Source of the DNA: a virus
IMG/VR virus record: IMGVR_UViG_3300037427_000047
Location: 1-24,546 of that record
DNA: 24,546 nucleotides
Direction: 5' to 3' (one strand)
Under the pieces are notes generated by a model. It worked only from the letters and a program-made list of their open reading frames with translations. It did not search any database and was not told the origin of the DNA. A program made the position numbers and the translations under genes. Position 1 is the first letter of the stretch, and each line of letters opens with the position of its first letter. This document shows positions 12,744 through 19,426 of this stretch, in pieces.

Positions 12744-14696
12744 TTAATTTCCTTGCATTAAATCTTTAATGAATTGCACCTGACTATCGATAATAAGTTT
12801 ATGTGTCGCTGCCTGCGTTCTCGCGTTCTTATCTAAATTTTCCTGAGTTATTCTGGTGTTTGCCATGTTCATAATGGCATTTAGATCAGCAATGGTTTCT
12901 ACTTCGATAGGAAATTTATTCACACCATTAGCCCCTCCTAAAGAGACAACTGCATTAAATGTTTGAATTTTTGCAGCTAGTTCTCGCTTTGCTTCTAGTA
13001 TGATGCTTTGAGAGTGAACCTTTAAAACCTCCCTATATTTTGCATCTATATCGCTTGCTGAAGGCCTGCCAACAGTATCAACCTGATCTTGAAACCAATC
13101 ATACAGTTCACCCGTTACTTTCATATACCCATTTCTTTGGACTTCCTCTAGACCTGTAGTTGCCGCTATACCTTCCTGGTATCCAAATGTTTTCTGAGCA
13201 ATCTTAATGACATTGCTAAGTCCTTCATTTTTTAATGCAATCACTCTGTTTTTAAGTTTGTCAAATTGGCTTTCCGTAAGGTCACCACTAGCAGCTGCCT
13301 GGGCAAGTTCTTGAATAGAGGGTCTTTGTTGTCCTTCTGGGTACTCAATAAGCGCAACTAGTTCAGCATATCTTCCAAGCTGGGCCGCACTGTCTGTGCC
13401 ACCACTTCCATCCTTGGAGGAATCTGGAGGCCAGTCCATCATTGTTTTTTGTCGCTCTGGAGAGGTTCCATTGGTTACGATAACATCCATCATTAATGCC
13501 CTTAGTTCATCAGCAGTTAATGTGTCTTTATCCCCAAATGCCTTCCGTAATGCATCTGCACCGTAACTCCGTGGAATGGTTGCCTGGGGCAGCATTCTTT
13601 CTACGGCATTTTCATCGTATGTCTGACCATCCTTAATAGCAAAGAATTGTTCATAGGCTTCATTTTCAAAAAACTGATCTTTCTTAATATTTTCCTCATC
13701 TGCCTCTCGAAGTTGCTGCCTATAATCATTTGCGTCCTTTAAGATATTAAACGTAATATCTTGAATGCTATCGCCAGTTAACTGCCCTAAAGAATGAAAA
13801 GCATACTTTACATCGTTAATGTCAGCTTCACCCGTTGAGGCCAGCAAAACCCCCGTAATGTCTTGAATGGCCTCTCCCATCTCTAATACTTGCGTTTTGT
13901 ACATTTGTAGTTTTTCGGGTCCTAATACTAACTCTATTTCATCTTCTGAAATGGTTCTTAATATTTCTTCTGCCTTTACTCCCTGGTCTATGATTTCATT
14001 GAATGCTGAAAATCGTGAGGCAAGATAGGGGTCATTGCCAACCAATTTAGCCAGGACACCTTTCGCAACATTTGTTTTCATTTCCCTGATTTTGCCATCA
14101 ACAACGGACTGCTTTATATCTTTGTTCTTTACTTTGGGCGCATGGTAATCTCGAATTTCCTGTATGGTATCTTTGTAGTTTTGAACACTGAAATTATTAA
14201 TTAATAATTCCTCTTGCTGCGTAAAGTATGTTGTCGATATTTTCTCTTTTCGGGTTTTAATGGCTTGGTTTAAATCATTACGCAAGGCAAAGCGATTGTT
14301 TGACTCTGATGTCATAAAGGTTGAATTAAACTTCTGAAGGGTGTTCTTATTGGTTCCCAGACTAGCCAGAATATTCTTTTTAATTTGATTGGATTGCGAC
14401 TGCCATTTGTTTGATCCATCAAGAACATTTGCTGGGTCATCGTCACGGGCCAGATCAAAGGCAAGGTTTCTTAACTCATCTTGAACCTTTACAGATGCCT
14501 CATCCAGTTTAAGCTGCTCTGACATATTGTATCGATAGAGAGCATAATCCCCGATACTGCTTGTTAAGGCTCTACCAGCTGCGCCTTTATCCAATGCCGC
14601 CTGGACGAATGGCTGCGCGTTTTTTCGTGTCTGGAATGCACGACCAGGGGCTTCATTGGTTGCCTGGATTTGGGATCTGTAAACTGGTATTCTCAT
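12744..14696 (-). CDS. Internal virion protein, gp15-like, 650 aa
   Basis: The protein starts MRIPVYRSQIQATNEAPGRA, a typical opening of the gp15-position internal proteins of marine T7-like phages (MRIPVYe.Q.....aPGR). It is then almost entirely charged alpha-helix with repeated coiled-coil stretches and no signal peptide or membrane helix. The T7 counterpart (747 aa) forms the middle of the internal core and part of the periplasmic ejection channel; the length here is comparable. The start codon overlaps the end of the gp14-like gene by 4 nt (ATGA at 14693-14696), so the two are translationally coupled. Identification rests on N-terminal pattern, composition and gene order. Confidence 0.75.
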   Translation of the reverse strand: MRIPVYRSQIQATNEAPGRAFQTRKNAQPFVQAALDKGAAGRALTSSIGDYALYRYNMSEQLKLDEASVKVQDELRNLAFDLARDDDPANVLDGSNKWQSQSNQIKKNILASLGTNKNTLQKFNSTFMTSESNNRFALRNDLNQAIKTRKEKISTTYFTQQEELLINNFSVQNYKDTIQEIRDYHAPKVKNKDIKQSVVDGKIREMKTNVAKGVLAKLVGNDPYLASRFSAFNEIIDQGVKAEEILRTISEDEIELVLGPEKLQMYKTQVLEMGEAIQDITGVLLASTGEADINDVKYAFHSLGQLTGDSIQDITFNILKDANDYRQQLREADEENIKKDQFFENEAYEQFFAIKDGQTYDENAVERMLPQATIPRSYGADALRKAFGDKDTLTADELRALMMDVIVTNGTSPERQKTMMDWPPDSSKDGSGGTDSAAQLGRYAELVALIEYPEGQQRPSIQELAQAAASGDLTESQFDKLKNRVIALKNEGLSNVIKIAQKTFGYQEGIAATTGLEEVQRNGYMKVTGELYDWFQDQVDTVGRPSASDIDAKYREVLKVHSQSIILEAKRELAAKIQTFNAVVSLGGANGVNKFPIEVETIADLNAIMNMANTRITQENLDKNARTQAATHKLIIDSQVQFIKDLMQGN

Positions 14697-15227: not shown

Positions 15228-17231
15228 CTATATGTCAAATGTATTTAATCGCGGAAATAAGGCCAGAACCGTAAGAGGTAAAGCCTGCGTTTGCTGAAGA
15301 TAGATCCTATCCTGGTCATCAAAACCGCCCGTAAACTCTATATCCTTGTCACCCGTAAAGAGAGACACTGCGGTATCCATAGCCATACTACTATCTCTGA
15401 ATGGTATACGTTCTACGGAACTTGAACTGGTGCCGACTTCAAGACCTACGGTTTCATAGAGCCTAACAGTCACGGCATGAATTCTCTTTGGCTTACCTTG
15501 ACTAGTTCCGTCAACAGATCCGCTTTCCAGCCGTAATGTTTTCATACTGCTTGTAAAACCTAATCCCACGGCTGCCGTTGTTACACTGAAGTCCGTAGTA
15601 ATACCGCCCGATGCAACTGTTTTTGTGGCATGAGAGGCTCCATTTCCAAGCACCGAAGCCGTCTGCCCCTGGAGATGATATAATCCCGTTAGTGAAGTTG
15701 TTGCAGATCCAGAATAACTTAATCCGCTATCTACAAAGAATGATCCCGTTGCAGCTGAACCAAAGTCAAATGTTTTTAGTTTCTCCACATATCTTTTCGT
15801 AACAGAATTTACTGTTCTCTTGACGATCATATAGAGATCATCTTCACCGCTATCCGTGGGCAGTGTGGCAATGCTTTCTACTACCGCCTGACCAGATCCA
15901 AAGACACCACCTAAAGTATGCTTATGCCAGGCAACAACTTGTTCTTCTCTACGATAGGTAAGACCTAGTAATGTGCCATCTGCACGGACGCACCACACAA
16001 TAGAGTCTGGTTCCTGCTGGAAGGCCAGGGCATCAATACCGCCATCGGTAATATGTTCTGCCAGGATAGTCATGTCAGGAGCCTGATAGCCTGACGCATC
16101 GACATCTCCGACATACTTAAATTCTCTGAGTTTCCTTCCTCCTCTTTGAAGAAATAGAGTAACATCGGCAACTTGAACTGGAGGTACTTGAGCCGATCCG
16201 TAGTTTGAATACTTTCTTATAAGTGTAGTCGTTGGTGTAACTGGCCCGTCATTACTGGCAGTCACCACATATTCCCCACCAGAAGTTCCGACAGTTAGCA
16301 CCCTGGTAGCTGAGAGCCAACGGATACTATCCACCGTATTCGAGGCTATGGTGTAGATCAAAGCATCGTCTGCATCGGTGCCAACCGTAAAGTTTAAATA
16401 GGCACCATTTTTAGAAAACCACAATGTCTGTGGGTTATTGTTAGAGTTTCCGAACACCAACCTTTGCTCAAAGAAGGACACCACACTCGGATAATTGTCT
16501 GAAGATGCCAACCCAGGGGAGGGACTGCCTGATATACTGGCGGTGGCAAAAGTCCAATTATTGTGAGCAGAGCGCGTCAATGTCCTTATCGCGTAGGAAG
16601 GATGAACCAAATACATCGTATCTGCGCTTTGTGCGAAATTGACATTCGGAAGATGGGCCTCGGTATATGGGGACGCAACTTCAAATATTTCTGTTGCCGT
16701 ACCTCCAGAGGTATAAGTCGTGAAATCTGTTGTATTGATTGCCGTGCCGAATAGGTCAGTCAATGTAAATGTGTGCGTTGTGGAATTTGCGACAAGGTAG
16801 TTTCTTGCGTTTAATTCTGTCATACCTCCAACAGAGGCAATATAAATTTCATCTCCATTAGAAAGTCCGTGGCTCGTTGACGTAAGTACACCAGGGGATG
16901 CCTTGGTTGCCGCTGATATTGTCTTTGCCGTACTATTGAGAACCTGAGATCCGTTTCGAATAACACGCATTGTCTGGTTTCCGAATACCAAAACATATGT
17001 ATCCGTGGTCTTGTATTGAAAAGGTATGAGCCTATTCTTTACGGAACTGGCCTTAACTTCTCCAACAAATTCCGTGCCTGGTCTTCTTGTTGCACCTCCT
17101 TGAGGCAATACAATCATATTTGTTAGATCTGCTAATCCCGTCTGGTATTTCTCCAGAGTTACCCGTCCTTCCAATCGTGGAGATAATTCCCCACTTACGA
17201 AGGCAGATATGGCTGGCGCAGATCGTGCCAT
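15228..17231 (-). CDS. Tail tubular protein B (tail nozzle), T7 gp12-like, 667 aa
   Basis: The N-terminus MARSAPAISAFVSGELSPRL, followed by LEKYQTGLADLTNMIVLPQG and GATRRPGTEFVGEVK, is a hallmark of phage tail nozzle proteins (FsgGElsP.l.GR.dl.kY..gl....N.i..p.Gga.rRPGt.fv). The rest is beta-strand-rich with FEQRLVFGNSNNNPQTLWFS and WLSATRVLTVGTSGGEYVV, seen in the same family. Length is a little below T7 gp12 (794 aa). The protein would form the hexameric nozzle below tail tubular protein A and dock the fibres. Its ATG at 17231 shares one base with the stop of the upstream gene (TAATG). Confidence 0.92.
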   Translation of the reverse strand: MARSAPAISAFVSGELSPRLEGRVTLEKYQTGLADLTNMIVLPQGGATRRPGTEFVGEVKASSVKNRLIPFQYKTTDTYVLVFGNQTMRVIRNGSQVLNSTAKTISAATKASPGVLTSTSHGLSNGDEIYIASVGGMTELNARNYLVANSTTHTFTLTDLFGTAINTTDFTTYTSGGTATEIFEVASPYTEAHLPNVNFAQSADTMYLVHPSYAIRTLTRSAHNNWTFATASISGSPSPGLASSDNYPSVVSFFEQRLVFGNSNNNPQTLWFSKNGAYLNFTVGTDADDALIYTIASNTVDSIRWLSATRVLTVGTSGGEYVVTASNDGPVTPTTTLIRKYSNYGSAQVPPVQVADVTLFLQRGGRKLREFKYVGDVDASGYQAPDMTILAEHITDGGIDALAFQQEPDSIVWCVRADGTLLGLTYRREEQVVAWHKHTLGGVFGSGQAVVESIATLPTDSGEDDLYMIVKRTVNSVTKRYVEKLKTFDFGSAATGSFFVDSGLSYSGSATTSLTGLYHLQGQTASVLGNGASHATKTVASGGITTDFSVTTAAVGLGFTSSMKTLRLESGSVDGTSQGKPKRIHAVTVRLYETVGLEVGTSSSSVERIPFRDSSMAMDTAVSLFTGDKDIEFTGGFDDQDRIYLQQTQALPLTVLALFPRLNTFDI

Positions 17232-18366: not shown

Positions 18367-18628
18367 CTATTCGTTGCAAGCAATTTGAACTACTTTAGAT
18401 TCCTCTAATCGGCTTGAGCCGAAGGAGGCGCAGTAGTACACTTGCGTTGCCATTGATTTATCAGGTCGCACATCAATGCTGGCCGTTGGTTCCTTACCCA
18501 TTGCCAAAACCATCCCATCGTCAGCCCAAGCATAGCACAGTCTTGATGTGCCATCGTCAGTTAAACGATTTGATGTTATGAACTTAAAACCGACAAATGT
18601 GTCGATATCACCTTGTACGAGTGCCTTT
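18367..18628 (-). CDS. Major capsid protein, exon 2 (C-terminal 86 residues)
   Basis: This segment has no start codon of its own. Read in the frame set by splicing, it begins with the last base of the split Val codon, then KALVQGDIDTFVGFKFITSN, then RLTDDGTSRLCYAWADDGMV, LAMGKEPTASIDVRPDKSM, and ends ESKVVQIACNE before TAG at 18367-18369. These are C-terminal hallmarks of T7-like capsid proteins (alv.GeidtF.GF.Fi.teRL, a......gv.la......idvrpdk..~~qvy....~g..r.....vv.i.c). The stretch is therefore real coding sequence orphaned by the intron, not spacer or a decayed gene. The decoration gene starts 15 nt after its stop. Confidence 0.9.
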
Positions 18629-18830
18629 CATACCAACTACGGTTTTCACCGCCTCTGTCGAGTTTGTGGTCTGGACTTTCTCTTTACCCTCATCTGAATG
18701 TTAGGGTATCAGCCGTCAAGTCTCTACACCTTCCTATTTCTAGGCTTGGCTCGGGATTAGCATTTTAAAGCCTTCCCCGAATTTGACTGAGTTTCATCTA
18801 AGTGTTTCCACCTAGATAGGCAAAGTATTT
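18629..18830 (-). ncRNA. ORF-less group I self-splicing intron (IC3-like), 202 nt
   Basis: Counting intron bases from 18830 downward, the group I elements are all visible. P1: exon GGU with intron GCC (10-12), giving a U.G pair at the splice site, extended by AAA:UUU. P2: 14-22 with 27-35, closed by GAAA. P3: UCAG-UC (41-46) with GA-cgg-CUGA (114-122). P4: UCGGG (51-55) with CCCGA (76-80). P6: GCC:GGU with P6a CCUA-GAAA-UAGG (87-98). P7: GaGACUU (107-113, bulged A) with AAGUCC (153-158). P8: ACCCU:AGGGU. P9 region: includes CGGU-GAAA-ACCG (180-191). P10: exon-2 AAAG with CUUU (6-9). The last base is G. Core strings CAAAUUCGG, CCGAGCCAAGC and GAAGGUGUAGAGACU match the Azoarcus tRNA-Ile intron as I remember it (205 nt). 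There is no room for a homing endonuclease. Confidence 0.95.
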
Positions 18831-19426
18831 ACCGAGTTATAATCCGCACTTGTAACAGTTGTGATGTTAAGTAGATCTTCCATCTGCTCTGGTGAAACTA
18901 CGATATATCGCTTGATTGATGGATCTACATTGCCCTCATCCAGGATCTTTTTGGCACTAACCAATTTTGCAACGGTTAGACCTCCAGAACCATGCGCGAT
19001 CTTCTGCGCTGCTGGAAGAGCAGTTGATGTAGAACCAGAACTTCCAGTTTTAGCTGAACCACCCATAGCTGCTATGATGACATCATCCATCTTTCGCCCT
19101 ATAGCAGCAGCTGCGGCTTTCGCATATGTGCTGGTGGGGTCAATAAGCATTCGAATTTTATCTTCCGAATCAATGAGATCTGCGTACTCGTAATCGGATA
19201 ATGTTACCATTCTTCTGGAATGTGGTGTATCCATTAGCGGAGTATCGCTGTTTCTTGTGGTTTTCTCCTCTGCGGCGGCACTGCCTACCTGCTCGAAGAA
19301 TGCTTTGTCACCATTAACAGTTTCAACATTCACCGCATTTCTCAAAAGACTTCCCATCTGTTGAGAGAGTAGCTGAACATTGGAACTATACTGGTTCACA
19401 AAACTTGTTGTGATTTGCGTACTAAT
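18831..19426 (-). CDS. Major capsid protein, exon 1 (N-terminal 199 residues)
   Basis: Exon 1 encodes (M)STQITTSFVNQYSSNVQLLS, QQMGSLLRNAVNVETVNGDK, DTPHSRRMVTLSDYEYADLI (around 80-100) and ends MEDLLNITTVTSADYNSV. This is the T7-like capsid pattern (MSt.ItqaFV.qf..nv..l.qq.gS.Lr..v........f.q.g...........t...d..h.rr.v...dy.~a~.id). Joined to exon 2 it gives 285 residues. Without splicing, translation runs five codons into the intron (NTLPI) and stops at 18812, a 204-residue truncated product. The start is chosen as ATT at 19426: it lies 7 nt behind a strong TAAGGAG and gives the family N-terminus exactly, whereas the first conventional start (GTG at 19399) has no Shine-Dalgarno and would remove nine conserved residues. 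Confidence 0.92.

Follow-up and report, generated by a model that had tools for sequence, protein, structure and literature searches.

Which kind of intron interrupts the major capsid gene of this virus, and how could such an element spread among phages if it carries no gene of its own? The window (the whole stretch of DNA that was analysed, 24,546 nt) is a 24.5-kb podophage fragment in which Pfam recognises a head-tail connector (PF12236), a terminase (PF03237) and a capsid protein (PF19821); the pelagiphages HTVC034P and Skadi are relatives of the window phage. On the minus strand, codon 190 of the 276-aa major capsid protein is split by 202 nt (18830..18629), with the 5' splice junction at CUCGGU/AAAUAC (18831/18830) and the 3' splice junction at GGUAUG/AAAGG (18629/18628). 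Joining the exons yields an unbroken 276-aa protein (...ADYNSV/KALVQGDIDTF...; PF19821, E 4.8e-92), and many relatives carry an empty version of the same capsid site. The insertion matches the Rfam group I intron family RF00028 (E 2e-20; gathering cut-off 50 bits), no other RNA family being found by the Rfam scan of the window, and its fold energy (z = -3.65) was equalled by none of 200 shuffles. An earlier note had proposed a group I intron at 18629-18830 from the letters alone, and the family match, the restored frame and the empty sites of relatives confirm, at the level of sequence, both its identity and its exact boundaries. The parts of the interrupted gene are as follows.

18629-18830, minus strand: group I intron, 202 nt, of IC3 (bacterial tRNA) type, no ORF (RF00028 84.3 bits; IC3 covariance model 118.4 bits; empty-site comparison)
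18831-19399, minus strand: major capsid gene exon 1, codons 1-189 plus two bases of codon 190, with GTG as the listed, putative start (tblastn, Pfam PF19821)
18367-18628, minus strand: major capsid gene exon 2, last base of codon 190, codons 191-276 and stop (joining restores the frame)
18812-18814, minus strand: in-frame stop UAG for the unspliced mRNA, intron nt 17-19, in P2 (sequence)

No ORF lies within the 202 nt, in agreement with the earlier claim that the intron encodes no endonuclease. The same note had called it about as small as natural group I introns get; it is indeed small, but it is not extreme, as the bacterial and phage tRNA introns reported by ARAGORN include sizes of ~173-200 nt.

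The predicted secondary structure was examined through covariation at the site itself, where 15 sampled alleles comprised seven intron haplotypes that were aligned. Its elements are listed below.

18819-18833, minus strand: P1, exon GGU (18833-18831) paired with the IGS GCC (18821-18819), U.G at the splice site, and intron AAA paired with UUU within (sequence; invariant in seven haplotypes)
18625-18628, minus strand: P10, 3' exon AAAG (18625-18628) paired with intron CUUU (18825-18822) (sequence)
18797-18816, minus strand: P2 with GAAA loop (haplotype alignment)
18785-18790, minus strand: P3 5' strand, partner 18714-18709 (compensatory change in four of six pairs)
18751-18780, minus strand: P4-P5 domain, P4 18780-18775/18756-18751 and P5 18772-18770/18761-18759 (two compensatory pairs)
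18728-18750, minus strand: P6/P6a with GAAA loop, P6 18750-18748/18730-18728 and P6a 18744-18741/18736-18733 (two compensatory pairs)
18718-18722, minus strand: P7 5' strand GACUU, partner AAGUC 18678-18674 (invariant at this site; covaries among bacterial relatives)
18686-18707, minus strand: P8 hairpin (one compensatory pair)
18632-18670, minus strand: P9 three-way domain, P9 18670-18667/18635-18632, P9a 18662-18653 and P9b 18651-18640 with GAAA loop (three compensatory pairs in P9a/P9b)
18629, minus strand: terminal (omega) G, the last intron base in 15 of 15 alleles at the site

Across the seven haplotypes, the 57 proposed pairs, P7 included, were paired in 397 of 397 cells, with compensatory changes in 12 of the 57, as against 30-47% paired in control structures slid by one to three columns. 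The splice-site U.G of P1, the terminal G and P10 are invariant in the 15 alleles. In the window haplotype, P2, P6a and P9b each end in a GAAA loop, as had been noticed from the letters together with the quoted core strings, all of which are present; the P2 and P9 loops, which could serve tertiary docking, are conserved. P5 is a short hairpin with no P5abc extension, and J7/3 consists of three bases, so that no P7.1/P7.2 insert is present. The exons also bear a signature of occupancy: the P1 base G-3 is found in nine of nine occupied alleles and in 5 of 33 empty ones, the P10 base G+4 in nine of nine and 2 of 33, respectively, and the changes that produce these bases are mostly synonymous. The in-frame stop is likewise kept in L068-type haplotypes, where it reads UAA instead of UAG owing to a G to A change in P2.

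Read as a working ribozyme, the capsid pre-mRNA would form P1 and P10, in which GGU and AAAG of the exons pair with GCC and CUUU of the intron, respectively. Attack of exogenous guanosine at the U/A junction would be followed by exon ligation, guided by the terminal G, to give an intact 276-aa capsid protein, while the stop at intron nt 17-19 may halt ribosomes ahead of the catalytic core. A degenerate, non-splicing intron that leaves a split capsid gene could be suspected from the annotation of some relatives with two capsid ORFs. We regard this as highly improbable, given that every proposed pair is maintained, with compensatory changes, that the P1 and P10 exon bases are fixed in occupied alleles only, and that the joined protein is a full-length capsid.

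As to the class of the intron, the core had been likened to that of the IC3 introns of bacterial tRNA genes. A pattern taken from the window core and run over bacterial genomes returned 118 loci, nearly all in tRNA genes that ARAGORN calls intron-bearing, with introns mostly of ~190-290 nt. A covariance model (R1) built from 37 bacterial tRNA introns only gave the window intron 118.4 bits, compared with 93.7-133.5 bits for held-out bacterial tRNA introns uncut by contig ends and 99-129 bits for phage tRNA introns. Scores for IA/IB-type phage and other introns were far lower (T4 22, Twort 27-50, S-PM2 38, pYD6-A 62 bits), as were those of a second family of introns in the capsid gene (family B, 29-38 bits). 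Because the R1 training loci share the search pattern, the positions outside it were scored alone: the window intron reached 58.7 and the held-out bacterial introns a median of 58.3, with T4 at 17, S-PM2 at 14, Twort below 0 and family B at 17 or less. Finally, a pattern-free search with the window intron through two bacterial classes (385 and 369 genomes) found 19 of its 20 best loci in tRNA genes. Taken together, the R1 score, the outside-pattern score and the pattern-free search mark the intron as of the bacterial tRNA type and support its assignment to the IC3 subgroup, although it lies in a capsid gene and not in the usual home of IC3 introns, the tRNA anticodon loop.

Could it instead be a compact phage IA or IB intron whose core has converged on that of tRNA introns? 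A phage protein gene is the usual location of IA introns, and family B, in the same capsid gene, is not IC3. Membership of IA/IB was nevertheless rejected on the wide gap in R1 score (118 against 22-62 bits for identified IA/IB-type introns), which persists outside the pattern, and on the three-base J7/3 with no P7.1/P7.2 insert, which leaves convergence a very slim prospect. As a separate observation, the intron of HTVC120P (L002 2540-2659) is missed by RF00028 yet scores 112 bits with R1; the general family thus misses some such introns, and general searches may undercount tRNA-type introns in phages.

Comparison with known systems sharpens what is unusual here. The window intron resembles bacterial tRNA IC3 introns, such as that of Azoarcus tRNA-Ile, in size, core, the GAAA loops of P2 and P9 and the lack of P5abc, P7.1 and an ORF, but differs in lying in a phage protein gene, in a guide that fits the capsid exon and in being AT-richer. 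It shares core and P9 domain with the IC3 introns of phage tRNA genes (Atu_ph07, LR756501 and 13 IMG/VR contigs); unlike it, these sit in tRNA genes, mostly called Leu-UAA, and the guide of one of them (L067) is GAGU where that of the window is GCC. The cyanophage S-PM2 psbA intron is similar in its ~210 nt, its lack of an internal ORF, its place in a phage protein gene and its occupied and empty alleles, but is not IC3 by score (38 bits) and has a known partner, the free-standing endonuclease F-CphI, whereas none was recognised for the window intron. The introns of T4 td, Twort nrdE and SPO1 are also group I introns in phage protein genes; they belong to IA2, have P7.1/P7.2 inserts and often come with endonuclease genes, and those of T4 and Twort, in contrast to the window intron, score low for IC3 (22-50 bits).

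Like the window phage, mycobacteriophage LittleE, lactococcal phage Tuc2009 and crAss-like phages have group I introns in their capsid genes, several of which may occur in one crAss-like gene (PMC3706429, PMC7886860). In the portions of these two papers available to us, the IC3 type is not reported for any of these capsid introns, and the LittleE intron, unlike that of the window, carries an HNH gene (819-bp insert). The introns of gut huge phages average ~206 nt (PMC12363816); phage introns are described as mainly IA2 (PMC11835236, PMC11878797), a subgroup that makes up more than half of viral introns (PMC11835236). A 2014 review placed all phage introns then known in protein genes, despite the many tRNA genes of phages (PMC3984707). 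Capsid group I introns and small ORF-less phage introns are known already; from partial coverage of the literature, we tentatively take as new the occurrence of the bacterial tRNA type in both capsid and tRNA genes of phages. With close relatives at hand in occupied and empty states, the scatter of tRNA introns across distant bacteria becomes testable, as does the way in which introns without an endonuclease spread.

For the occupancy survey, 59 relatives were fetched by capsid protein. Besides the window, eight carry the intron at this site, and about thirty are empty, so that a scan which the earlier note had suggested did reveal both states. The occupied allele L047 is nested within a group of empty alleles with which it shares 95-97% identity, and L051 is empty within an occupied clade. 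The introns of eight alleles show 0-1 differences in 202 nt, while their capsid exons are 76-98% identical and differ at up to 57% of four-fold sites. Other haplotypes at the site (the L047, L298 and L068 types) are ~11% different from the window intron, much of it compensatory, and the near-identity of the eight introns therefore reflects recent spread rather than immobility of sequence. Presence is thus patchy rather than universal, and the intron does not simply follow the capsid tree; strict vertical descent was rejected on the divergence of intron versus exon and on the nested occupied and empty states. A version in which the intron was gained once in the capsid lineage and the ribozyme was held by selection while the exons diverged agrees with the single variable base (intron nt 4), which fits the capsid tree of the main clade. 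It seems quite unlikely: the ~11% divergence of the other haplotypes indicates an intron free to change, 0-1 intron differences alongside divergence of up to 57% at four-fold sites would need an implausible gap in rates, and L047 and L051 would still have to be accounted for.

The exons flanking the intron carry a further trace of its movement. Between L050 and L042-L044, the longest identical exon run (200-242 nt, in genes that differ at 137-150 sites) spans the insertion, and the longest run also includes the insertion site in the pairs L038/L042 (107 nt) and window/L053 (122 nt). The window and L039 have an identical intron with only 14 nt of identical flanking exon, so that tract length varies and can be short. 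Exon divergence among occupied lineages falls from ~0.22 far from the site to 0.09 near it, whereas the drop is much weaker in pairs of empty alleles. Mismatches between L047 and its empty siblings were locally enriched near the site, but the excess was only weakly significant (P 0.003-0.12), and we do not rely on it. Co-conversion tracts of this kind favour transfer at the level of DNA, and the pattern points to an intron that has spread among related phages by gene conversion, with no cutting enzyme of its own. Among related marine podophages, conversion together with flanking exon would fill intronless alleles, driven either by an endonuclease supplied in trans or by ordinary recombination during co-infection.

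We looked for a partner enzyme, as the earlier note had recommended. Searches for HNH_3, GIY-YIG and HNH, which covered the window record together with 19 related ones, found no partner near the window intron, and neither that record nor the relatives occupied at this site yielded a recognisable homing endonuclease; these negatives come from contig fragments, the window itself being without early genes. The only match above the cut-off was in Chosvirus KM23-C739, with a weak one in a phage whose intron lies at site 60. Two intron-bearing relatives of 36 kb (G021, G022) are without HNH_3 or GIY-YIG, and no homing family was among the families shown by Pfam and PHROG scans of their ORFs. The same scans showed VRR-NUC and resolvase-like proteins, which are structure-specific nucleases and were on that ground not accepted as homing enzymes. 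A small HNH_3 ORF of 74-77 aa occurs in KM23-C739 (L003 621-845, 74 aa) and in a further relative (G031 12959-13042). In KM23-C739 it adjoins the scaffold gene, upstream of a doubly interrupted capsid gene, and is a candidate free-standing homing endonuclease for the capsid introns of that phage.

Were the intron RNA to reverse-splice into capsid mRNA and then undergo reverse transcription and recombination, no endonuclease would be needed, and no gene for one was found in the records searched. This route would also suit the occurrence of related introns at several positions in capsid genes, where each has a short guide that matches its site, and the occupied pairs that share almost no exon flank. 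A matching guide is needed for splicing in any case, however, and does not identify the route of spread; the long co-conversion tracts at this site are a mark of DNA repair or recombination, and no reverse transcriptase was noted. We accordingly hold this route to be unlikely. Set against the routes that had been suggested from the letters (a free-standing endonuclease, reverse splicing or vertical descent), the tracts, which the note had not foreseen, favour spread at the level of DNA over reverse splicing at this site, and strict vertical descent is rejected.

Where did the capsid intron come from? The same core was found in tRNA genes of 13 viral IMG/VR contigs (mostly Leu, with Arg, Val, Tyr and Met as called) and in the tRNA-Leu(UAA) introns of the isolate Agrobacterium phage Atu_ph07 (L233) and of the 735-kb LR756501 (L004). 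Of the 13 contigs, four have a terminase match that passes the family cut-off, and one more has a weak match. Intron-bearing phage tRNA genes, mostly tRNA-Leu(UAA), include those of L233, L004, L067, L071, L075, L079, L087, L089, L104 and others. Related IC3 introns also lie at other positions of the capsid gene in HTVC120P and KM23-C739. In BLAST searches, the window intron matched its own site family first (251-258 bits), then a phage tRNA intron (L087; 155 bits, 81% over 189 nt), with the best bacterial intron at 122 bits; in the pattern-free search, bacterial tRNA introns were 74-75% identical over ~157 nt. One tree, from an alignable core of only ~126 columns, nests the window intron with the phage tRNA introns L085, L075 and L079 (98/83, 99/92, 85/99); in another, which places it within a starred set of 31 rows, it shares an unresolved fork with phage tRNA introns, and the two trees disagree in detail. 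AU tests (p 0.10-0.67) rejected neither the bacterial introns nor the capsid introns as one clade. By similarity and tree, the closest relatives beyond the capsid site thus appear to be introns in tRNA genes of phage contigs, in a sample biased toward similar introns, the search pattern for phage relatives having been derived from the window intron.

Direct transfer from a host tRNA gene to the phage capsid gene, with no stage in a phage tRNA gene, has some claim to attention, given that the bacterial tRNA introns are close (74-75%) and that the AU tests give no rejection. It is nonetheless unlikely in our estimate, since phage tRNA introns are closer both by similarity and by tree path, albeit in the pattern-biased sample. 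A jump from a host tRNA intron, which the earlier note had raised as a testable origin, would be one possible source: the bacterial introns are close, the nearest introns are phage-carried ones, and the AU tests reject no order of transfer.

The reading that we prefer, a functional, endonuclease-free IC3 intron that comes from a lineage circulating in phages and spreads by gene conversion of DNA, is in our judgement probably correct. Such a lineage would reside mostly in phage-encoded tRNA genes and would have entered capsid genes from there. The broader proposal, that phages keep this lineage in their own tRNA genes and have repeatedly moved it into capsid genes by changing a guide of three to four bases, we put at even chances; if it is true, phages would serve as a reservoir of the tRNA introns scattered among bacteria and might also transport them.

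Several minor observations accompany these results. Family B, the second and non-IC3 intron family of the same capsid gene, measures 246-250 nt where measured, has no ORF and occurs at aa 43, 60, 63 and 143, with the guide of each copy fitted to its own site; it was listed for L040, L045, L046, L064, L053, L050, L083, L093, L101 and L102, and a pattern scan for additional family B introns found none. Both families occur together in L050, L053 and L298. At such introns, gene callers break the capsid genes of marine phages in two: GenBank lists a pair of capsid proteins for what is a single intron-bearing gene in HTVC120P (L002 2327-3501) and KM23-C739 (L003 2164-3240). The ORFs of the 36-kb relatives G021 and G022 include integrase, PAPS reductase, cytosine methylase, zeta-toxin-like and VRR-NUC families, which suggests that these intron-bearing phages may be temperate. 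Lastly, a tail-region protein of the window (15228-17231, minus strand) matches the E1_FCCH domain of ubiquitin-activating enzymes (PF16190, 1.4e-10), a match that is also found among the ORFs of G021 and G022.
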